DNA of 25,445 nucleotides, from positions 1-25,445 of IMG/VR virus record IMGVR_UViG_3300027801_001209; one strand, written 5' to 3'. The stretch is from a virus. Shown piece by piece: positions 12,392 to 24,688 of this stretch. The stretch's first letter is position 1, and each line of letters begins with the position of its first letter. The translations under genes and the position numbers were made by a program. The notes under the pieces are model-generated. The model had not been told where the DNA came from, made no database searches, and worked only from the letters and a program-made list of their open reading frames with translations.

Positions 12392-13252
12392 ATGAGTACA
12401 AGAGTGAAAATGAGTGATGACACGGCAATTATTGAATACGCAAACAGCGAAGTCAGTCAACACAACCCAAAATTTAAAATGGAGCATTTTGTAGGCGGTT
12501 CAATGCTTACACCATATAAACGGATGCACCAATACTTTGCTGAATTGCGAGTAAAACAAGATTCGTTCCTACACTGTGATTGGGAATTAAAGAAAAAAGA
12601 AATTGAGTTAAAGATTGAAGAACGTAAATATTCTCAGGTTAAACCAGATACATTAGAACAAGAGTATATTGAATTAGATTTAATGAACATACGTAAAGAT
12701 TGTAAACAATATAGAGACCGTATGAAACAAGCTCTTATAGAAAAAGATGATTGTTTAGCTTTAATTAGAGAATTGAATGAAAGTCCTGAGGGTAAACTAC
12801 CAGATGGTACGTTCCTTATTGATGTATTTGGTAATAAAGAGTTAGAAGAAAAACTTGAAGCTGAATACTGGACTGTAAGACTTGCTAAACAATGTGCTAC
12901 AGAAATGTTAGCATATGGTAAAATTGGTACAGGAAACCTTGACGCAATTGCTATGGTTCCACCAGCAATGCAAAAGGAAGTTTTAAAAATTGCAACTGAT
13001 TATACAGTTAGATTTGATATTAACATGAATCAATTAACTAATCAGGCAGTTGCTGATTTAAGAATTGGTTACGTTAATGAACGAAGACTGGCACAATTGA
13101 AGAGTATAGGTATTGCTGAAGGCGCTGAGTCTCCAGAGTTACTTAAAAATTTAGAAATGTCTCAACCAGACAATAATACTCTTATAAATAATAAGTATAA
13201 CAACGAAGAACAAATTTCACCTCCAAGTGGTGATTGGACAACAGAAAAATAG
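12392..13252 (+). CDS. Conserved marine T4-like phage protein, helical
   Basis: A 286-aa soluble, mostly helical protein. It begins MSTRVKMSDDTAIIEYANSE and has FVGGSMLTPYKRMHQYFAEL near residues 33-52, then a long charged helix (about 54-115, ELKKKEIELKIEERK, YRDRMKQALIEKDDCLALIREL) and an EYWTVRLAKQCATEMLAYGK segment near 158-177 followed by GTGNLDAIAMVPPAMQ. From memory this layout matches a protein family conserved in cyanomyoviruses and related marine phages, of unknown function and encoded near structural genes. Late promoter and a strong ribosome site are present. The C-terminal 40 residues are polar and probably disordered, and their DNA contains a late-promoter box. Confidence 0.6.
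   Translation: MSTRVKMSDDTAIIEYANSEVSQHNPKFKMEHFVGGSMLTPYKRMHQYFAELRVKQDSFLHCDWELKKKEIELKIEERKYSQVKPDTLEQEYIELDLMNIRKDCKQYRDRMKQALIEKDDCLALIRELNESPEGKLPDGTFLIDVFGNKELEEKLEAEYWTVRLAKQCATEMLAYGKIGTGNLDAIAMVPPAMQKEVLKIATDYTVRFDINMNQLTNQAVADLRIGYVNERRLAQLKSIGIAEGAESPELLKNLEMSQPDNNTLINNKYNNEEQISPPSGDWTTEK
13183..13190 (+). promoter_or_regulatory. T4-type late box TATAAATA inside the end of a gene
   Basis: Exact TATAAATA within the last codons of the 286-aa gene, 71 bases before the ATG at 13262. It is the only exact box found inside a coding region, and it falls in a poorly conserved-looking tail, so it may drive the next gene or continue into the accessory operon. Confidence 0.5.
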
Positions 13253-13261
13253 GGATAACAA

Positions 13262-14002
13262 ATGGCAAATCAATACGTTTTATTTAAAAAGAACAGTATA
13301 GAACAAAAACCAGGCTGGATTGCAGATTATTTTAATTATTGTAGTTACGGTGTAGGTATTATTACAGACGAAATGCAGGATTTAAGGGTTGAGTTAGACC
13401 ATATTCATGCAGAAATTATTCCTTATTCAACTGCCAAAGGTGTTTTGTTTGCAGATTCATATGATGGAACAATATCAATTAAACCAGGTACGTCTGTAGC
13501 GGATGAATTTCCTCAACTAGTAGGTTCTGGTGAAGCTTCTAAGACAACACACACACTATCAAGTGATGATGTAGCACAAGGAGTTTTATTTCAAAAGGTA
13601 TTATTCAAAAGAATTATTAGGGATAGATACAATCAACACTTCTTAGCATTAACTCAAGCAAGTGCATTAGAGAAACAATCTTGGGCCGTGCAACAAGCAG
13701 AAGCTAAAGATTGGACAGCAGATAATTCTGCTTCAACTCCGACACTATCTACTTTGGCAACAGCAAGAGGTCTAACAGTATCAGCATTAGTATCAAAAAT
13801 TAATACTAAAGTTACAGCATATAACAGTGCAGTAGCAACTTTACTAGGTGAACAAAAAGACTTAGAAGATGAAGTTGACGCATTAACAGATGTTGCAGGT
13901 CTACATAGATGGAGACACCTTAAAGGTATCTCGGCTGTATCAACAGCACAAGCAACAGATGAGCCAGGTCTCGCTGACGCACCGACTAAGATTAGTTTTT
14001 AA
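13262..14002 (+). CDS. Probable virion-associated protein with DUF4376-like helical domain
   Basis: A 246-aa protein starting MANQYVLFKKNSIEQKPGWI. The N-terminal half (about 1-80) is mixed alpha/beta. The segment at about 145-205 (AEAKDWTADNSASTPTLSTL, ARGLTVSALVSKINTKV, NSAVATLLGEQKDLEDEV) has the W-x-x-x-S-x-x-x-P-x-L...A-x-x-R-G-x...L-V-x-K-I pattern of DUF4376-type domains found in phage tail-fibre assembly and tail proteins. It ends with WRHLKGISAVSTAQA. The ribosome site GGGATAACAAATG is shared with two other genes in the window. Location at the end of the fibre cluster fits a tail role. Assignment by pattern only. Confidence 0.5.
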   Translation: MANQYVLFKKNSIEQKPGWIADYFNYCSYGVGIITDEMQDLRVELDHIHAEIIPYSTAKGVLFADSYDGTISIKPGTSVADEFPQLVGSGEASKTTHTLSSDDVAQGVLFQKVLFKRIIRDRYNQHFLALTQASALEKQSWAVQQAEAKDWTADNSASTPTLSTLATARGLTVSALVSKINTKVTAYNSAVATLLGEQKDLEDEVDALTDVAGLHRWRHLKGISAVSTAQATDEPGLADAPTKISF

Positions 14003-14044: not shown

Positions 14045-15727
14045 ATGTTTAGTATACCACTAAATCCAAAACTAACGCCAGAACAATTTGATACGTTTCT
14101 GGAGTTCCTCAAACGAAATAAGAAATATATCTATGATGTATATTATACATCTAGGATTGCTCCCTTTGGACAAGACGCAATGGGTGATATATTTCCAGCA
14201 ATTGAACAAGGGTTAATATCCGAAAACGCTTATATTATTCCTAAAGAGACAGGTATTCCTTTATCTGCCACATTCAATAACATAGAAGTACCTCCTACAG
14301 ACGCCAACTTAGACCTATTCATTAAGAATTTTAAAAATCTGTACGACAATGGCATTCGTATTGTAACTATACCACATACTCTTTGGATGCTATCTGGTAA
14401 GTTCCAACGTGCATATCCTGACGTATTAGTAAAGAATACTATTCTTAGAAATACACAAAGAGCTAATGAGATAGTGAAACAAGTAGAGGCTGGGTTTAAT
14501 TACATCAACCTAGACCGAGACTTAATGCGTAATGAGGACTTTCTAAAATCATTAGCAAAGGTCAAAGAACATTGTAAGACTAAACTTGGTGTAGATGTTA
14601 AGATTAGTTTACTTGCAAACGAGGGTTGTTGGGGTAATTGTCCAGTACAAGATGAACATTTTTTATATAACAATACAAGAAAATCAGGTTTAGAACCAAC
14701 ATATTTCAAAACAAAAATTAGTTACTTCTCATGTCCTAAATGGGAAGAACAAGACCCAGCATATCAATGGCGTATCGCAAACTTTCCACCTTGGAAAGAA
14801 GAGTGGGATAGATTACTAACTTACATTGATGTTATTAAAATGCATGGTAGAGAAAGCTCTGAAAGACTATTTGAGAGTATGACTATCATTGATAGATTTA
14901 GAGAAGGAAAGGAAATTCTATTTCCTGAATTTGAAGAGTTTATTAATAAACAGAAATTTGCCGACAAAAGAATTAAAGTATGGCGAGAGACTATTAAGAA
15001 TTGCCAATTTAATTGTTGGGATTGTAATGTCTGTGATAAGATAGTAGAAAAGAATAATAGTGTAGAATATATTAAAGTAGTAAAAGAAGCTATACAAAAT
15101 AGTGGTAGAGGTTTTAGTGGGATAACTGATACTACAAAGGCAATAGGTGGCCTTACTTCTGATAAAGTTAAACACCTAGTTAACAATATTTGTAGAAATA
15201 CACCAGACCCTAGTTACTTAGAGGTTGGTGTTTTTCAAGGTGCTATATTTACAAGTGCATTAGAAAGAAATAATATTATCGCAACTGCTGTTGACAATTG
15301 GTCAGACACACAAAATGTACCAGCAGATGAGAAAGTAAAGATTGACGTTGAGAGAGGTAAGGATAAAACAATATTTTTAGAGAATATTCGTAGTCAAGTA
15401 CAAGATAAAAGAGTACAGATAATTGACAAAGACTTATTCAAAGTACAACCTAGAGATATTAGGACAAAAGCTAATATAGTGTTCTATGATTGTGACCATA
15501 CACCAGAGGCACATTATAAATTCTTAGGACACTATAGAGACGCTATTGACGATACGTTTATATTGTTAATGGATGATTGGAATTGGCCACATGTTAAGGC
15601 TATGACTGAACGTTCCATTAATGACAACGGTATGAAAGTATTATTTAAAGAAGAGATTATGACGAAAGGAGAAGACAAAGACGATTACTGGAATGGAGTA
15701 GGTGTTTTTGTTATAAACCAACAATGA
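14045..15727 (+). CDS. U32-like Fe-S protein fused to a class I methyltransferase-like domain
   Basis: A 560-aa fusion. Residues about 1-340 resemble the peptidase U32 fold (an Fe-S TIM-barrel family that includes UbiU/UbiV and tRNA/rRNA hydroxylation proteins): FNYINLDRDLMRNEDFLKSL, VDVKISLLANEGCWGNCPVQ and then a distal cysteine cluster CQFNCWDCNVC at 320-330. C195, C199, C230 and the CX3CX2CX2C cluster could ligate a 4Fe-4S centre. Residues about 385-560 look like a Rossmann methyltransferase: YLEVGVFQGAIFTSAL (motif I), VFYDCDHTPEAHYKFL and FILLMDDWNWPHV, the last like the acidic post-strand-5 segment of Methyltransf_24 proteins. No good ribosome site precedes the ATG; initiation may depend on readthrough. 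It overlaps the next gene by ATGA. Function inferred only: Fe-S-dependent modification, possibly of RNA or a small molecule. A dead enzyme cannot be excluded. Confidence 0.6.
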   Translation: MFSIPLNPKLTPEQFDTFLEFLKRNKKYIYDVYYTSRIAPFGQDAMGDIFPAIEQGLISENAYIIPKETGIPLSATFNNIEVPPTDANLDLFIKNFKNLYDNGIRIVTIPHTLWMLSGKFQRAYPDVLVKNTILRNTQRANEIVKQVEAGFNYINLDRDLMRNEDFLKSLAKVKEHCKTKLGVDVKISLLANEGCWGNCPVQDEHFLYNNTRKSGLEPTYFKTKISYFSCPKWEEQDPAYQWRIANFPPWKEEWDRLLTYIDVIKMHGRESSERLFESMTIIDRFREGKEILFPEFEEFINKQKFADKRIKVWRETIKNCQFNCWDCNVCDKIVEKNNSVEYIKVVKEAIQNSGRGFSGITDTTKAIGGLTSDKVKHLVNNICRNTPDPSYLEVGVFQGAIFTSALERNNIIATAVDNWSDTQNVPADEKVKIDVERGKDKTIFLENIRSQVQDKRVQIIDKDLFKVQPRDIRTKANIVFYDCDHTPEAHYKFLGHYRDAIDDTFILLMDDWNWPHVKAMTERSINDNGMKVLFKEEIMTKGEDKDDYWNGVGVFVINQQ

Positions 15728-16449
15728 GAAAGATTGAATTTGTAAGTACATTACCTGGGGTAGCTGACCTATTCATGGTAAGGAACACCTCTGATTATAC
15801 ACCAAAATGGATACCACTGGCAATGGTGGATTATAAAAAGAATTTAGATAAGACTAAAAAGACTACTCACATTATGCAATGTCCAGGTATCTTTAGTTTA
15901 TTTAAAACAGGTTACATAGTATCAGCATGGTATGATGTTGTTGTTAGTACAAAGAAAAGTCAAAAAGGATTTAACTGGAGAGTTGCTGATTCTGATTTAA
16001 TGCAAAACGCTGAGATGGCTATAATAGACACACACTCAGATAGTCATACAAAATTTATTCCTAAACGAGAAGGAACACTTGAAAATATTGTAAAGATTAA
16101 TACACCATATCATGTAATAGCACCGAAAGGTGTTAAGTTTTTATGTATGCCTATACCTTATCCTGATTCGTTTGAGTATGAAAGTACCACCGGCATTCTG
16201 GACCCAGCAGAATCTAGTGAGATAAATATACAATTGAATTGGAATGTAGAAGAGGGAGAAACTTTGATTAAAGCAGGTACTCCACTTATGTACATGTTAC
16301 CTATATCAGAAGAGAAATTTGAAATGACATGTAGAGACGCAACTGAAAAAGAAATTATATGGATGAAAAAAAGAAGATACTTTAATAGTTTTTCTTTTAC
16401 TCCAATTAGAAATAAAGTGAAAGAAGTATATGAGAAGTATTTTCAATGA
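15724..16449 (+). CDS. DUF6065-like protein of unknown function
   Basis: A 241-aa protein starting MRKIEFVSTLPGVADLFMVR. The pattern MQCPGIFSLFKTGYIVSAWY then DVVVSTKKSQKGFNWRVADS (residues about 56-95) resembles DUF6065-type proteins, with a C-P-x-x-x-x-x-x-x-x-G-Y-I-x-x-W/L-x-D core, a family found in phages and bacteria without a known role. Further conserved-looking parts are PKGVKFLCMPIPYPD and INIQLNWNVEEGETLIKAGT, an apparent beta core, and a charged helical C-terminus. Its ATG overlaps the stop of the fusion gene (ATGA), and its own stop overlaps the next ATG the same way, so it is translated as part of one operon. It may be a cupin-like beta protein; not certain. Confidence 0.55.
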   Translation: MRKIEFVSTLPGVADLFMVRNTSDYTPKWIPLAMVDYKKNLDKTKKTTHIMQCPGIFSLFKTGYIVSAWYDVVVSTKKSQKGFNWRVADSDLMQNAEMAIIDTHSDSHTKFIPKREGTLENIVKINTPYHVIAPKGVKFLCMPIPYPDSFEYESTTGILDPAESSEINIQLNWNVEEGETLIKAGTPLMYMLPISEEKFEMTCRDATEKEIIWMKKRRYFNSFSFTPIRNKVKEVYEKYFQ

Positions 16450-17039
16450 TTGAACCAATATTCGCCACACCTATATACAAGTCTGATAACTGTTACGAGT
16501 TTACTAAAGAGCAATTAGATTGTTTGAGTAGTTTAGAATTAATGGAAAACAGAGGTAACACTGTAACTAAAGATAAGAATATTTTTGATAATACTATATT
16601 CTCTGATTTAAAAAACTGGTGTCTATTGAATGTCAATGCTTTTGCAGAACAATTAGGTAGAGAAGAGGGTGTAGAATTTTATATAACAAACTCATGGTAC
16701 AATAAAAGTAAACCTCACGAATCACACCATTCACACATGCACCCTAACAGTATTTTCTCAGCAGTATTATATGTTGACGGACCAGATTGTCCGACTTTCT
16801 TTTATAACAATGGTGCTTTTGCAAACTTTACCTTTTATGATAAAAATAAAGGCAATCAATTTACAGCAAACAAAGTAGGCATTAGAAATGAACCTGGAAG
16901 ATTAATATTATTTCCATCTTCATTAACACATGATGTTGATACCAATAGAGGTAACAGTGATAGACATACTATATCATTTAATACATTTATTAAAGGTAAG
17001 TTTGGTGACTATAATGATTTAACGGAGCTAACAATATGA
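16446..17039 (+). CDS. 2OG-Fe(II) oxygenase (TIGR02466-like)
   Basis: A 197-aa protein of the 2-oxoglutarate/Fe(II) dioxygenase superfamily, close in layout to the TIGR02466 group common in marine phages. Seen: ITNSWYNKSKPHESHHSHMH then PNSIFSAVLYVDGPD (residues about 80-114), corresponding to the family pattern N-S-W-x-N...H-x-H-x-H-P-N-S-x-x-S-x-V-x-Y; GRLILFPSSLTHDVDTNRGN with the distal histidine H162; and RHTISFNTF with R173, the expected 2OG-binding arginine. These enzymes hydroxylate proteins, nucleic acids or small molecules using O2 and 2OG. The gene overlaps both neighbours by ATGA. Adjacency to heme-oxygenase genes and a U32-like protein suggests a shared oxidative modification pathway, but the substrate is unknown. 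Confidence 0.75.
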   Translation: MIEPIFATPIYKSDNCYEFTKEQLDCLSSLELMENRGNTVTKDKNIFDNTIFSDLKNWCLLNVNAFAEQLGREEGVEFYITNSWYNKSKPHESHHSHMHPNSIFSAVLYVDGPDCPTFFYNNGAFANFTFYDKNKGNQFTANKVGIRNEPGRLILFPSSLTHDVDTNRGNSDRHTISFNTFIKGKFGDYNDLTELTI

Positions 17040-18067
17040 TAGATAATCTATTAGCCGGTCAGGTGTATTTATTTCTGATAGTATTTGTAATGATGATTGC
17101 AGGTATGATTAAAGACAACAATTTATTTAGTGATGTATTTTCGTTTCTAAAAAGAAGTATGAAAAGCAATAGAGCTATTGTAGCCTTGTTCAGTGCATTA
17201 ACAGGAGTGTTACCTATTAAAGGTCGTGTAACTGTATCTGCTGGACTTTTAGATACACTAGCAACTAAGAACCAAGCAAGTAGAAGTAAGTTTGGTCCAA
17301 TTGATTTTATGGCAACACACCATTATTATTTTTGGTCGCCTTTAGAGAAGACTGTTATCTTACCTATGGCTGCATTTGGTTTATCATATGGCGCATTTAT
17401 TGGTTTGATTTGGCCGTTGATAGCAATGACCTTTGTTTATACTCTAAGTTATCTTATCTTCTTTGTTAAAGACACAGATATAAAATTAAAACGAGGAGAA
17501 GATGAGATTAAGATTAGTAGAATAACAAGATACGTTTTCCCTTACATACTAGGTATTGCAGCTGTTATATCTGGCGTAAACTTTCTGTTTGTATTCAGTG
17601 TGTTAACAATATACTATATGATTGTTACACGAACATTTGATTTTAAAAAACTATTACGTTATGTCGATTGGTCTATTGTAGCTTGGGTTGCAGGTATTAT
17701 TTTCTTATCAAACATAGTAAGAGAACATACAAACGAAATCACAACGTTCTTAGGAACGACAGGTTTAGATATAACAACGACATTTGGATTTATGGCAATC
17801 AGTGGACTATCTTTTATTGGTGCATTTGTTTTAGGCTCATCAAGTAGATTTGGTGCAATCACCGTATTACTTGCCTCAATATATGGTATTGAATATCTAC
17901 CATGGTTCTTTGCTGTTGACTTTGCAGGTTATATTTTATCACCTATGCACAAGTGCGTAGCAATTGGTAAGTTATATTTTGGAACCAAACTATCAACCTA
18001 TGTTAAAATATTATCGGGGTGGGCAGGATTATTAATCGTAACGGCAGGAGTATTACTATGGATATAA
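17036..18067 (+). CDS. DUF401-like integral membrane transporter
   Basis: A 343-aa polytopic membrane protein with about nine or ten hydrophobic segments. Matches the DUF401 pattern: NRAIVALFSALTGVLPIKGR (family A-x-x-A-L-L-P-A-x-x-G-L-L-P-x-x-G), THHYYFWSPLEKTVILPM (family Y-W-F-R-H-x-W-E-x-x-x-P-L-Y-P), and near the C-terminus FAGYILSPMHKCVAIGKLYF (family G-Y-L-L-S-P-x-H-L-C-L-V). DUF401 proteins belong to the ion transporter superfamily alongside GntP and other carboxylate carriers. GGAG lies about nine bases before the ATG, which overlaps the previous stop. Its last ten bases overlap the heme oxygenase start. In the operon it could move a substrate or product of the pathway, such as a bilin precursor or carboxylate; that is inference. 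Confidence 0.65.
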   Translation: MIDNLLAGQVYLFLIVFVMMIAGMIKDNNLFSDVFSFLKRSMKSNRAIVALFSALTGVLPIKGRVTVSAGLLDTLATKNQASRSKFGPIDFMATHHYYFWSPLEKTVILPMAAFGLSYGAFIGLIWPLIAMTFVYTLSYLIFFVKDTDIKLKRGEDEIKISRITRYVFPYILGIAAVISGVNFLFVFSVLTIYYMIVTRTFDFKKLLRYVDWSIVAWVAGIIFLSNIVREHTNEITTFLGTTGLDITTTFGFMAISGLSFIGAFVLGSSSRFGAITVLLASIYGIEYLPWFFAVDFAGYILSPMHKCVAIGKLYFGTKLSTYVKILSGWAGLLIVTAGVLLWI

Positions 18068-18648
18068 AAGAAATAACAAGTGAGTGGCATAAGGCTGCTG
18101 AAAGAAAAGACTTTGTAAAGACAATTATGAGTGGCAACTTAGATGAAAAAGTATATGCAACTTACGTATATAATCAAGCACAATGTTATGCTGTGTTGGA
18201 AAAATATGCACAAGAAAATTCTTTGTTTAGACAGACACCTGGTATAGAAAGAACTGAACATTTGGTCTATGATTACAAAGCATTATGGAAGGATGAAGAA
18301 ACGCCTATTATAACACAAAGTACAAAAGAATACATTAATCACATTGAAGGTATTAAAGAAGACGCCCACAAACTCTATTCACATATATATGTAAGACACT
18401 TAGGAGATTTGTCTGGTGGTCAGATGATTAGGAAGAAGACACCTGGTCCTAATAGATTTTATACCTTTAAAGACGTAGCACACAAAACTTATAAACCTAT
18501 TGTTAGGGAAATAATACATTCTTATTTAAGTCTGTACGAAGAAGATGTACGTACAGAAACACAGAACTGTTTTATATTTGCAACAAGACTATTTGGAGAA
18601 ATGCATGATTTGGGAAAGATTATTACTCAACAGCGAAAAACTGATTAA
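18058..18648 (+). CDS. ho1: Heme oxygenase
   Basis: A 196-aa heme oxygenase that cleaves heme to biliverdin IX-alpha, CO and iron using O2 and reduced ferredoxin. Start at 18058 is chosen for GGAG seven bases upstream and because it gives the normal N-terminus MDIKEITSEWHKAAERKDFV; a TTG further upstream would add 13 residues read through the DUF401 end. H11 aligns with the proximal heme ligand (family T-x-x-x-H-x-x-A-E). GDLSGGQ at residues 116-122, within RHLGDLSGGQMIRK, is the signature distal helix. Length fits bacterial HO1 (about 190-240). It overlaps the DUF401 gene by 10 bases, and the bilin reductase start lies 44 bases inside it. Function is well supported by motif and neighbour. 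Confidence 0.93.
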   Translation: MDIKEITSEWHKAAERKDFVKTIMSGNLDEKVYATYVYNQAQCYAVLEKYAQENSLFRQTPGIERTEHLVYDYKALWKDEETPIITQSTKEYINHIEGIKEDAHKLYSHIYVRHLGDLSGGQMIRKKTPGPNRFYTFKDVAHKTYKPIVREIIHSYLSLYEEDVRTETQNCFIFATRLFGEMHDLGKIITQQRKTD

Positions 18649-19288
18649 GACATTAAATTTTCATTGTGAAGAATACAATGAAGAAGGAATGGAAAGATTT
18701 AACGATAAAGAATTAGGTTGGGTCAATCGTACCTGGCAAAATCGAAGCATACGTAGAGCTCACATTGATATCGTTGACGTAAGAGATACTAAAGGTCTTT
18801 GGATGATGCATGTCTGTATTTTTCCAGAGAAACATAATGATGGTCCTATTTTTGGGTGGGACGTAATCGCAGGTAAGAATAAAGTTACCGGTGCATTTTA
18901 CGATTGGTCGCCTATGTTAGTTAAAGACCATTACATGACACAAAAATTCATTGAGATGAATAAACCATTTAAACCAACGAAGCAACGAGAGTTGCCAGAT
19001 TGGGCATTGAAGATATTTTCACCAGGTATGATGGCTGCTGGAAACATTACAACAGAAGAAGAAATCAATACTATCTGTGGACTTGTTGAAAGACAACTAA
19101 AAGTCTACTTAGATATCATTAACAACTATGATAATACAGGCAAAGAAGAAGAAGTAATCAATGCTCAGAATTATTATTGTGAACACCAACAACAAAACCC
19201 TCATACACCAAGGGTAATGATGTCTTTAGGACTACCAGAGGAAACTGTAAAAACCTTTTGCACAGACAACTTGTTTCCTAAAATATAA
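18605..19288 (+). CDS. pcyX: Ferredoxin-dependent bilin reductase, PcyX-like
   Basis: A 227-aa FDBR that reduces biliverdin with electrons from ferredoxin. Start at 18605 is chosen for GGAG six bases upstream and because the 227-residue product fits the family. Motifs: RRAHIDIVDVRDTKGLWMMH (residues 50-69), FPEKHNDGPIFGWDVIAGKN (73-92), GAFYDWSP, LPDWALKIFSPGMMAAGNIT, AQNYYCEHQQQNPHTPRVMM then SLGLPEETV, and a final FPKI. H69 and D86 align with PcyA His88 and Asp105; PcyA Glu76 aligns with D55. The GPIFGWDVIAGKNKVTGAF region and the preceding heme oxygenase fit PcyX, described from uncultured oceanic phages thought to infect alphaproteobacteria and shown to make phycoerythrobilin. PcyA, PebS or PebA/B-like activity cannot be excluded by eye. 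The start is embedded 44 bases inside heme oxygenase, so the two are translationally coupled. Confidence 0.88.
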   Translation: MIWERLLLNSEKLIKTLNFHCEEYNEEGMERFNDKELGWVNRTWQNRSIRRAHIDIVDVRDTKGLWMMHVCIFPEKHNDGPIFGWDVIAGKNKVTGAFYDWSPMLVKDHYMTQKFIEMNKPFKPTKQRELPDWALKIFSPGMMAAGNITTEEEINTICGLVERQLKVYLDIINNYDNTGKEEEVINAQNYYCEHQQQNPHTPRVMMSLGLPEETVKTFCTDNLFPKI

Positions 19289-19323: not shown

Positions 19324-19331
19324 TATAAATA
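19324..19331 (+). promoter_or_regulatory. T4-type late promoter box TATAAATA (second before gp13)
   Basis: Exact TATAAATA, 20 bases before the gp13 ATG at 19352, the spacing used by most boxes here. It restarts transcription at the neck/terminase block after the accessory operon. Confidence 0.75.
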
Positions 19332-19351: not shown

Positions 19352-20158
19352 ATGGCAGAACCAGCAAGTAGAGAACAACTAAAACAGTATGCTTTAAGAG
19401 CATTAGGTAAACCAGTTATTGAGATTAATGCTGACGACAATCAATTAGAAGATAGAATTGACGAAGCGTTACAGTATTGGTCGCAGTTCCACTATGATGG
19501 TATCCGTAGAAGTTACTTAAAGTATCAATATACACAAGCAGATAAAGACAGAGTTACAGTAAACTCTTCTGAATCTGTTACAAAGAATTCAGTAACCACG
19601 GCATGGGAAGAAGGCCAAGGTTATATCATTGTTCCCGAGTCTGTTATATCAGTAGTTAACATATTTCCTTTTTCATCTAAAGGTTCTTTAAACTTATTTG
19701 ACGTAAGATATCAATTAAGATTGAATGACCTTTACGACTTCTCTTCAACTAGTGTTGTAAACTATGACATGGTGATGAGACAACTTGACTTCTTAGACCA
19801 CATTTTAGTTGGTGAAAAACCATTAAGATACAATCAACACGACAATAGATTATACATTGACATGGATTGGAAGAATGATTTAAGAGTTGGTGAATATCTA
19901 GTTATTGAGTGTTACAGAAAAATGGATCCAAACGTTTACACAGATGTGTTTAACGACATTTATTTAAAAAGATATGTAACTGCTCTATTTAAAAAACAAT
20001 GGGGACAAAACTTGTCTAAATTTAACGGCATGGCCATGATTGGTGGTGTCTCACTTAACGGCCAACAGATATATTCAGAAGCGTTAACAGATTGTACAAA
20101 ATTAGAAGACGAAATCAGAAGTACATTTGAATTAAATCCAGCGTTTTTGATAGGATAA
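19352..20158 (+). CDS. 13: Neck protein gp13
   Basis: A 268-aa homologue of T4 gp13 (309 aa), which with gp14 forms the head-completion collar that closes the packaged capsid and receives the tail. The N-terminus MAEPASREQLKQYALRALGK, then PVIEINADDNQLEDRIDEAL, is the conserved start of gp13 in marine T4-like phages; YWSQFHYDGIRRSYLKYQYT and YIIVPESVISVVNIFPF follow, and the C-terminal VTALFKKQWGQNLSKFNGMA is also characteristic. It has two late boxes upstream but only a modest ribosome site (GGGACTAGAG). gp14 follows after three bases, as in T4. The only GATC site seen in the window is inside this gene. Confidence 0.88.
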   Translation: MAEPASREQLKQYALRALGKPVIEINADDNQLEDRIDEALQYWSQFHYDGIRRSYLKYQYTQADKDRVTVNSSESVTKNSVTTAWEEGQGYIIVPESVISVVNIFPFSSKGSLNLFDVRYQLRLNDLYDFSSTSVVNYDMVMRQLDFLDHILVGEKPLRYNQHDNRLYIDMDWKNDLRVGEYLVIECYRKMDPNVYTDVFNDIYLKRYVTALFKKQWGQNLSKFNGMAMIGGVSLNGQQIYSEALTDCTKLEDEIRSTFELNPAFLIG

Positions 20159-21948: not shown

Positions 21949-22443
21949 ATGAACAAAAAATTAGAGAATTCAGTTAATGAAATATTAGGTTTAGACCCGG
22001 TCTCAGAAGATATTACAGAGAACGAAAACCAAATGGTTGTTAAAGAAACACCAAAGGTGCCTAGAGTAGAAGACAAAGACAAAGGTGATATTGATAATGA
22101 TTATACTCACAGTAGAGAAAATTATTATAACCTTATAGATAAAGGTAACGAAGCAATCGAAGGTATTTTAGAGATTGCTAAAGAGGGTCAACACCCTAGA
22201 GCATATGAAGTTGCTGGACAACTTATCGCTAACGTAGCTACTACAGTAGATAAACTACAAGACTTACAAAAAAAATTAAAAGACTTGAAGGCCGAAACTA
22301 AAAGTGCTGATACTAAAATTCAGAACGCTCTCTTTGTCGGTTCAACAGCAGAGTTACAAAAGATGTTGAATAGAAAAGAAACGCCGGAGAGTAGAATGGA
22401 AAAACAGACCGAAAATGAAATTGTTGAAGGCAAAACTGGTTAA
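21949..22443 (+). CDS. 16: Small terminase subunit gp16
   Basis: A 164-aa homologue of T4 gp16 (also 164 aa), which regulates the large terminase during DNA packaging. It begins with a variable acidic arm, then DYTHSRENYYNLIDKGNEAI, EGILEIAKEGQHPRAYEVAG, a coiled-coil segment (LIANVATTVDKLQDLQKKLK), and NALFVGSTAELQKMLN, all typical of the gp16 family. The start is six bases after gp15. Its 3' end overlaps the ParB-like gene by 29 bases. In T4 gp17 follows gp16 directly; here two small genes lie between. Confidence 0.9.
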   Translation: MNKKLENSVNEILGLDPVSEDITENENQMVVKETPKVPRVEDKDKGDIDNDYTHSRENYYNLIDKGNEAIEGILEIAKEGQHPRAYEVAGQLIANVATTVDKLQDLQKKLKDLKAETKSADTKIQNALFVGSTAELQKMLNRKETPESRMEKQTENEIVEGKTG

Positions 22444-22750
22444 CAGCAAAAAGATTGTTGTTGCATTAGATAATATTAAATATATCAAGTCTATGCCACC
22501 ACTACAAGAGTTGATGAATGGTGAAGAATTAGAACTGCCAATAGAAGTATGGGAATATAAAAAAGGCACAGGTGAAAAAACTGGTGTTAATGGCACCACA
22601 TATATTCATAAACCATACATGACATTTAGAGGCAGTCAAAGAGTTAATGCAGCTATACGATTAGGTTATACACACATAGAAGCCTTAGTAATTAAGGACG
22701 AAGTATGGCTTAGTCATTTTATGAGGGAAAGTGATGACACACGTTGTTAA
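22415..22750 (+). CDS. ParB/sulfiredoxin-like small phage protein
   Basis: A 111-aa protein (if started at the ATG 22415; TTG codons at 22421 and 22424 are alternatives, and no strong ribosome site is visible, so coupling to gp16 is likely). After a basic N-terminus, [20 protein letters not shown] and [20 protein letters not shown] with YTHIEALVI resemble the ParB/Srx fold (I-x-x-x-G-x-H-R-V-x-A-x-x-x-L-G-Y-x-x-I-x-x-x-V). The catalytic residues of Srx are not present; such small ParB-like proteins are often found in phages and may bind DNA. It overlaps gp16 by 29 bases and the ferredoxin by 17. Role in packaging is inference. Confidence 0.6.
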
Positions 22751-23057
22751 TGAAAGTTGTATTAAATGCAAACTTATGGACTGTATCGAAGTTTGTCCAG
22801 TTGATTGTTTTTATGAAGGCAATAATATGCTGGTCATTAATCCAGACGAGTGTATTGATTGTGGCGTTTGTGTACCAGAGTGTCCAATTGACGCAATTGT
22901 TACAGACGACAAGGCAACAGATTTAATGATAAAGGTTAATGAAGAGTATTCTAAAATATGGCCAAATATAACAGAGAATGAAGTATCTCCGTTTGGCGAT
23001 AAACATAAAGATGAAGATGATAAGTACAATAAATATTTCAGAGAGAATATAAAATAA
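22734..23057 (+). CDS. fdxA: 7Fe (3Fe-4S + 4Fe-4S) ferredoxin, FdxA type
   Basis: A 107-aa ferredoxin closely following Azotobacter FdI. Seen: [17 protein letters not shown] (residues 9-25), with C9, C17 and C21 plus the remote cluster [20 protein letters not shown], giving the residues that bind a [3Fe-4S] and a [4Fe-4S] centre. The C-terminal part [16 protein letters not shown] is also typical of FdxA. The ATG at 22734 is preferred over the in-frame GTG at 22731 because AGGG lies six bases upstream. This is a proteobacterial-type ferredoxin, unlike the plant-type [2Fe-2S] PetF of cyanophages. It overlaps the ParB-like gene by 17 bases and shares one base with gp17. A plausible electron donor for heme oxygenase and the bilin reductase, but expressed with the packaging block. 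Confidence 0.92.
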
Positions 23058-24688
23058 TGACAGACGCATATCTAGGTAACCCCAATCTAAAAAAGATTAA
23101 TACTCCGGTTGAGTTTACTAAAAAACAAATTATAGAGTATCAGAAGTGTGCCGCTGACCCATTATACTTTATGGAAACTTATATTCGTATTGTATCACTT
23201 GATGATGGTCTTGTACCTTTTAAGATGTATCCTTTTCAGAGACACATTGTACAAACAATACATGATAATAGATTTACTATTTGTAAACTACCAAGACAGT
23301 CTGGTAAGTCCACAACCACAGTTTCATATCTATTACATTATGCATTGTTTAATCCTAATAGTAACATTGCTATTCTTGCCAACAAATCATCTACTGCTAG
23401 AGATATCTTAGGCAGAGTACAACTTGCTTATGAGAATTTACCAAAGTGGTTACAACAAGGTGTTATCAACTGGAACAAAGGTAACATTGAATTAGAAAAC
23501 AAGTCGGTCATTGTGGCAGCTGCAACATCTTCAAGTGCTATTCGAGGTGGTTCATTCAACATCATCTTCTTAGATGAATTTGCTTTCGTACCTACCAATA
23601 TTGCCGAGGCCTTCTTTAGCTCAGTTTATCCTACAATTTCTTCTGGACAAAAAACTAAAATGATAATCGTATCCACACCTTACGGTATGAATATGTTTTA
23701 TAAGTTATGGACAGACGCAGAGAATAAACGAAACGATTATGTTCCTATTGAAGTGCATTGGTCAGAAGTTCCAGGCAGAGATGAGAAATGGAAAGAAGCA
23801 ACAATAAGAAACACCTCACCTGAGCAGTTTCAACAAGAGTTTGAATGTGAATTCTTAGGTTCAGTAGATACCCTTATCAGTCCTTCTAAAATTAAAACCC
23901 TTGCATATATGGACCCCTTGACTACAAGTGGTGGTGTAGATGTATTTGAACACCCTATAAAAGGTAAAGAATATGTTTGTACAGTTGACGTTGCAAGAGG
24001 TGTAGAAAAAGATTACTCGGCGTTTGTAATATTTGACGCAACACAAATGCCTTATAAAATTGTAGCAAAGTATAGAAGTAACGAGATTAAACCTATTTTG
24101 TTTCCTCACATTATCAAAAAAGTTTGTGACGCATACAATAAGGCAAATGTATTAATTGAGGTCAATGACCTTGGTCAACAGATTGCAGAAGCAATGCAAT
24201 TTGAATTAGAATATGATAATTTATTAATGACTACACAAAGAGGTCGTGCTGGTCAAATATTAGGTGCAATGTTTAGTGGTAGAGGTTCATCACTAGGTGT
24301 AAGAATGACTAAACAAATTAAGAAGATTGGTTGTTCTAATATCAAAACATTGATTGAATCGGATAAACTTTTAGTAAATGACTTCAACATTATTGGCGAG
24401 ATGAGTACCTTTGTAAGACGAGGTTCATCATGGCAGGCAGAAGATGGTTGTAATGACGATTTGTTCATGTGTTGTGTGATATTCGGTTGGTTGAGTAACC
24501 AACCATTTTTTAAAGAATTAACGAATACTAACGCAAGACAAATGTTGTATGAGGAACAAGAGAAATTGATAGAACAAGATATGGCACCCTTTGGATTTAT
24601 TGATGATGGAACACCAGATGAGTTGAAAAGTGAAGTAGATGAGTATGGTACGGTCTGGCATCCAGTAGTGACACACAAAGGATTGTAG
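23057..24688 (+). CDS. 17: Large terminase subunit gp17
   Basis: A 543-aa homologue of T4 gp17 (610 aa), the ATPase-nuclease motor that pumps DNA into the capsid. Seen: Walker A PRQSGKST (residues 79-86), Walker B IIFLDEFAF (169-177), the coupling STP motif (206-208), and a C-terminal nuclease domain starting VDVARGVEKDYSAFVIFD with D311, then EVNDLGQQIAEAM and EDGCNDDLFMCCVIFGW with acidic residues of the RNase H-like site. The start shares one base with the ferredoxin stop (TAATG). No intein or frameshift is visible. Confidence 0.93.
   Translation: MTDAYLGNPNLKKINTPVEFTKKQIIEYQKCAADPLYFMETYIRIVSLDDGLVPFKMYPFQRHIVQTIHDNRFTICKLPRQSGKSTTTVSYLLHYALFNPNSNIAILANKSSTARDILGRVQLAYENLPKWLQQGVINWNKGNIELENKSVIVAAATSSSAIRGGSFNIIFLDEFAFVPTNIAEAFFSSVYPTISSGQKTKMIIVSTPYGMNMFYKLWTDAENKRNDYVPIEVHWSEVPGRDEKWKEATIRNTSPEQFQQEFECEFLGSVDTLISPSKIKTLAYMDPLTTSGGVDVFEHPIKGKEYVCTVDVARGVEKDYSAFVIFDATQMPYKIVAKYRSNEIKPILFPHIIKKVCDAYNKANVLIEVNDLGQQIAEAMQFELEYDNLLMTTQRGRAGQILGAMFSGRGSSLGVRMTKQIKKIGCSNIKTLIESDKLLVNDFNIIGEMSTFVRRGSSWQAEDGCNDDLFMCCVIFGWLSNQPFFKELTNTNARQMLYEEQEKLIEQDMAPFGFIDDGTPDELKSEVDEYGTVWHPVVTHKGL

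Follow-up and report, generated by a model that had tools for sequence, protein, structure and literature searches.

A heme oxygenase and PcyX-type bilin reductase pair, probably expressed late in infection, in a T4-like pelagiphage

Gene layout and phage background of the window

The window, by which we mean the whole stretch of DNA analysed, is a 25,445-base IMG/VR fragment (IMGVR_UViG_3300027801_001209) with a G+C content of 35%, in which no tRNA genes were found. Genes on the plus strand run from tail-fibre-like genes through a string of six overlapping genes to gp13, gp14, gp15, TerS, a small gene, a ferredoxin gene and the terminase large subunit gene (TerL), and the right end of the window holds the start of the tail sheath gene, 3' of TerL. 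The string opens with a gene for a 560-aa protein with a methyltransferase-24 domain (14045-15727; PF13578, E 2e-6; phrog_1458, E 6e-157), followed by genes for a protein matching phrog_7084 (15724-16449), a 2OG-Fe(II) oxygenase (16446-17039; PF13759, E 2.1e-20) and a DUF401/CitMHS-like membrane protein (17036-18067; PF04165, E 2.4e-8). The last two members are a heme oxygenase gene (HO, hemO; 18058-18648) encoding 196 aa and a gene for a 227-aa ferredoxin-dependent bilin reductase (FDBR; 18605-19288). Successive overlaps along the string measure 4, 4, 4, 10 and 44 nt, the largest being that of HO and FDBR (18605-18648), and a Shine-Dalgarno-like GGAG lies a few bases 5' of the start of each of these two genes. 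The coordinates, the motifs and the 44-base overlap given for the pair in the original prediction were all exact.

The conserved neighbour 3' of FDBR encodes the neck protein gp13, a head-tail adaptor (19352-20158, plus strand; phrog_211, E 8e-43), and the T4-type TerL was found further downstream (23057-24688, plus strand; PF03237, E 2.4e-26). These proteins are 80% (gp13) and 84% (TerL) identical to those of Pelagibacter phage Mosig, and gp14 is 75% identical. Structural genes this near to those of Mosig place the window among the pelagimyophages (Mosig-like T4-type phages) and bear out the predicted T4-like, non-cyanophage origin. Because Mosig (EXVC030M, MT647606) was isolated on Candidatus Pelagibacter ubique HTCC1062, the host of the window phage is likely Pelagibacter or a close SAR11 bacterium, an assignment drawn from one isolated relative. 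Carriers of such gene pairs had been described as phages believed to infect alphaproteobacteria, and the gp13, gp14 and TerL identities narrow this toward Pelagibacter.

Two transporter genes also lie within this phage sequence. Positions 1-975 encode the C-terminal part of TctA of a tripartite tricarboxylate transporter (PF01970, E 8e-30), and a minus-strand gene at 2147-2926 encodes a 259-aa protein with a signal-peptide-like start which resembles a periplasmic binding protein and had no Pfam match.

Assignment of the heme oxygenase and the bilin reductase

The HO reading frame runs from an ATG at 18058 to a stop at 18648 and matched PF01126 with an E value of 1.3e-19; its product is 62% identical to Mosig_00054. 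His11 occupies the position of the proximal heme ligand and is near-invariant across the group, and the distal region carries GDLSGGQ, which is likewise conserved, with Asp117 as the distal-site aspartate. These are the features of an HO-1-type enzyme, and the heme oxygenase with GDLSGGQ and a proximal histidine that had been claimed for this gene agrees with them. The product is predicted from the sequence to be biliverdin IXalpha.

The FDBR reading frame begins with an ATG at 18605, ends with a stop at 19288 and contains the motifs RRAHIDIVDVRDTKGLWMMH and GPIFGWDVIAGKN. It matched PF05996 above the curated cut-off (E 4.1e-24) and is 64% identical to Mosig_00053. Among solved structures the nearest was PcyX_EBK42635 (PDB 5OWG), which matched over the full length with an E value of 5.5e-97, compared with 5e-15 for cyanobacterial PcyA. 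In a maximum-likelihood tree, built without HY2 and without alphaproteobacterial PcyA and with a very long PebS branch, the window FDBR, 5OWG, Mosig and the phage relatives formed one clade with a support of 100/100, separate from cyanobacterial PcyA, cyanophage PcyA and the PebS/PebA/PebB-type rows. The phylogeny that had been called for thus places the 227-aa protein within the FDBRs and with PcyX, apart from PcyA, PebA, PebB and PebS. The catalytic Asp and His that are conserved throughout the PcyA/PcyX branch correspond to Asp86 and His69 in the window FDBR, and both of these, together with Asp55 and His53, are invariant in the 83 PcyX-type rows of the alignment. Asp55, also present in the window, has been described as a PcyX-specific catalytic residue (Wegner et al. 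2024, PMC11480375) and is replaced by Glu in both cyanophage PcyA rows (n=2). All sequence tests that were run identify the FDBR as PcyX, and the PcyX-like assignment made at the outset is upheld by the 5OWG match, the 100/100 clade and Asp55.

By analogy with characterised relatives the enzyme most likely converts biliverdin to the pink pigment phycoerythrobilin. A few residues can switch the product, since the CB_2 phage enzyme, which stands midway between PcyX and PcyA, makes PCB (PMC11480375). A rival reading is that the window enzyme is PcyA-type and yields phycocyanobilin; the two types share a superfamily branch, and a genuine PcyA is known from a freshwater phage whose genes are arranged similarly (PMC11480375). 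In view of Asp55, the fully supported PcyX clade and the closeness to 5OWG, we regard this as highly improbable.

Coupling of the pair, late-promoter motifs and neighbouring genes

One scan of IMG/VR returned 228 relatives of the FDBR and another scan 304 relatives of the HO, numbers that put the observation far beyond chance. Among 138 HO loci, with a few contigs entered twice in the count, 134 had an FDBR. The four exceptions comprise two contigs which stop 3 and 18 bases past HO, cyanophage P-SSM2, whose bilin reductase is elsewhere in its genome, and locus L198, where a different gene follows HO and the contig then ends. HO and FDBR therefore go together wherever the contig is long enough, L198 apart. 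The two genes were directly adjacent in 123 of the 127 loci with both, and FDBR was followed by gp13 in 92. Both genes are under purifying selection, with dN/dS values (Nei-Gojobori) of about 0.02-0.2 in most close pairs, a range like that of gp13, gp14 and TerL.

The pair was also found outside the Mosig-like background. It occurs in T4-like phages with a very different gene set (L077, L253 and L282) and in large-phage-like contigs (L086, L087 and L268) where genes for GMP reductase, Hsp20 and ClpS precede HO; the latter three represent a second PcyX lineage at about 52% identity. Two of them, L086 and L087, are binned in GTDB genomes of Neomarinimicrobiota and Pirellulales, but share the large-phage-like gene order and are probably misbinned phage contigs, so we did not accept them as cellular carriers of PcyX. 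A contig in the assembly of the flavobacterium Nonlabens xiamenensis (L089) was set aside as well; it carries a near-copy of the PcyA of cyanophage P-TIM40 and is a probable contamination.

The T4 late-promoter core TATAAATA occurs eight times in the window, always on the plus strand (3344, 3958, 6749, 12362, 13183, 19284, 19324 and 24702) and often 27-35 nt ahead of gene starts. The nearest copy 5' of the string that ends in HO-FDBR (13183-13190) precedes the gene at 13262, as it does in 13/13 relatives, and the copy between FDBR and gp13 (19324-19331) precedes gp13 in 113/113 relatives. Across the related loci the motif was strongly strand-biased (368 copies on the coding strand, 16 on the opposite strand), and it lay ahead of the sheath gene in all 31 loci. 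It was found ahead of FDBR in 0/128 and ahead of HO in 4/115 related loci. In 99 of 112 loci the next copy came no more than 100 nt after the stop codon of FDBR. Of the 83 loci with enough sequence, 69 had a copy upstream of HO, at a median distance of 2.7 kb. The pair thus lacks a late promoter for itself and stands at the end of a late-type transcription unit, directly followed by a conserved late promoter of T4 type. Given this position relative to the motifs, late expression of HO-FDBR is probable. The same motifs are useful for dividing such phage genomes into late units.

The ferredoxin gene (22731-23057, plus strand), which the original prediction omitted, encodes a bacterial-type protein with two 4Fe-4S motifs and a DUF3470 (PF13237, E 2.9e-9; PF11953, E 4.8e-7). 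FDBRs take electrons from ferredoxin-type proteins, and this one is a plausible, possible donor for the window enzyme, though not a dedicated one. Among the loci with FDBR, TerS and TerL the window alone has it. The family is common in marine phages without the HO-FDBR pair, and the flanks fetched for most of its relatives contained neither HO nor FDBR; as a general rule, a dedicated partnership with PcyX was therefore rejected. The interval between TerS and TerL (window 22415-23057) behaves as a cargo site, holding ferredoxin here, a 5-aminolevulinate synthase gene (AlaS) with a 2OG oxygenase in some relatives and other small genes elsewhere. AlaS occupies the window's ferredoxin slot in eight related loci. 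There is none among the annotated genes of the window, a 25,445-base fragment, and AlaS is present in G004 and G012.

Several other neighbours were considered. At 15 loci DUF401 lies directly 5' of HO, but it was rejected as part of the HO cassette because it also occurs without HO (with HO in 37 of 62 evaluable cases). It was mutually exclusive with a ferrochelatase-labelled gene in the loci seen, a pattern that may follow lineages. The 'ferrochelatase' family (L002:16357-17127, equal to Mosig_00059, and 28 further loci) bears this name by PHROG label only; it had no Pfam match, PDB sequence matches do not support the name either, and the label is possibly a misannotation spread via PHROGs. 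PF00762 found no ferrochelatase in Mosig and 18 other records, and the gene was dropped as evidence of heme flux. Many relatives, the window's nearest among them, have directly 3' of FDBR an outer-membrane porin-like gene which the window lacks (for example L004:4439-5458 and L077:10686-11744). Its product has a signal peptide, a coiled coil and about 16 predicted strands, and its model, with a pLDDT of only 64, matched OmpF and Rhodobacter-type porins in Foldseek (E about 1e-8). Slightly fewer than half of the relatives of this gene have no nearby FDBR, and we did not retain it as an obligatory member of the cassette. Pelagiphage-like contigs also carry, near HO, a gene of the tryptophan-halogenase family (PF04820, E 9e-107), at L016:1747-3357 and 18 further loci.

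Proposed pathway, its possible purpose and known systems

We consider it very likely that a lytic T4-like pelagiphage encodes here an HO plus PcyX pathway from heme through biliverdin to phycoerythrobilin, probably read late. HO would open heme to biliverdin IXalpha, Fe2+ and CO, and PcyX would carry out a four-electron reduction of biliverdin through 15,16-dihydrobiliverdin to phycoerythrobilin. The host would supply reduced ferredoxin for PcyX, with the phage ferredoxin gene at 22731-23057 as a possible alternative source. At the end of the overlapping string, the pair would most likely be read late in infection alongside the virion genes. The chemistry of phage PcyX is known, and the point of interest is what is gained in a SAR11-type, non-photosynthetic heterotroph, SAR11 (Pelagibacter) being the ocean's most abundant heterotrophic bacterium.

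The absence of photosynthesis genes, bilin lyase and phycobiliprotein noted at the outset extends to the related records searched. In 16-17 of these, searches for a PHY domain, for phycobilisome proteins and for a psbA-type reaction centre found nothing, and 19 had neither a CpeT nor a CpeS lyase, the whole Mosig record and the 177-kb G004 being among those searched; control genomes were positive where expected. The search covered phage records, and GAF-only and distant globin-type acceptors lie outside the families searched. These results bear on the idea that the bilin is loaded onto a bilin-binding protein of host or phage, such as a phytochrome, a bilin-binding globin or another photoreceptor. 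PcyX-type products do serve as protein chromophores elsewhere and the FDBR step is always kept, but because no acceptor was found in the families searched, chromophore supply is without direct support and we hold it to be doubtful.

Recovery of iron or heme is possible, if still on the unlikely side: HO would free iron for an iron-starved infected cell and FDBR would remove biliverdin and so keep HO turning over. The liberation of Fe2+ is part of HO chemistry, and iron supply has also been discussed for the published cassettes (PMC11480375). An FTR1-family iron permease gene about 1.5-2 kb past the cassette in L077/L253/L282-type phages keeps this explanation alive, but it was seen in that lineage only. 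HO alone would free iron, yet in this group HO practically never stands without FDBR, and the eight loci with AlaS add an enzyme that builds more tetrapyrrole. Since FDBR stands strictly beside HO and some relatives carry AlaS, the bilin itself, or the flux as a whole, is favoured as the purpose over simple iron release. Another reading is protection against redox or photo-oxidative stress, or an electron sink: HO and PcyX would together draw on many reducing equivalents and on O2, heme or porphyrin would be removed, and the bilin left late in infection would be an antioxidant. The ferredoxin in the window genome and the probable late expression fit this, but in relatives the ferredoxin is unlinked to HO-FDBR, and we offer this reading tentatively. 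Equally tentative is a broader picture of a late bilin factory in a non-photosynthetic host, with variable helpers (ferredoxin, AlaS, the DUF401 protein and the porin), in which the bilin would act outside light harvesting, for example in redox protection or as a signal during virion production and lysis. Whatever the role, the co-occurrence of HO and FDBR, the purifying selection and the place before a late promoter argue that the reduced bilin, beyond iron release, is kept by selection, which probably acts late in infection.

Four known systems can be set beside the window. Cyanophage PcyA and PebS (P-TIM40, P-SSM7, P-SSM2) belong to the same FDBR superfamily and are likewise encoded by T4-like phages, but PcyA of the cyanophages shares only 23-29% identity with the window FDBR and has Glu for Asp55, the cyanophage hosts are phototrophs, and P-SSM2 has psbA near HO. 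PcyX_EBK42635 (5OWG) shares Asp55, His53, His69 and Asp86 with the window FDBR and matches it over the whole length; it is a single metagenomic sequence with a structure, whereas the window FDBR is a further member in a longer genome context.

Marine pelagiphage hemO-pcyX cassettes related to Mosig have been published (Wegner et al. 2024, PMC11480375). These hemO-pcyX(-valaS) cassettes contain the same pair as the window, are of pelagiphage origin by gp13 and in some cases have AlaS nearby; the annotated genes of the window include no AlaS, and a ferredoxin sits in the TerS-TerL slot. The HO-PcyX pair is thus already known from these cassettes and from the Mosig arrangement, and the window adds one member. 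New here are the absence of phycobiliproteins, PHY-domain phytochromes, CpeS/CpeT lyases and the psbA family from the related records that were searched, the quantified coupling of HO and FDBR across phage backgrounds, the purifying selection, the anatomy of the late unit and the variable helper genes.

The fourth system is Mosig, where Mosig_00054 and Mosig_00053 form an overlapping HO then FDBR right before gp13, gp14, gp15, TerS and TerL, as in the window. The two differ 5' of HO, where Mosig has 2OG-oxygenase genes and the window DUF401, and in the TerS-TerL interval, which in Mosig has no ferredoxin. Mosig and HTCC1062 are a culturable phage-host pair carrying HO-FDBR and open to direct testing.
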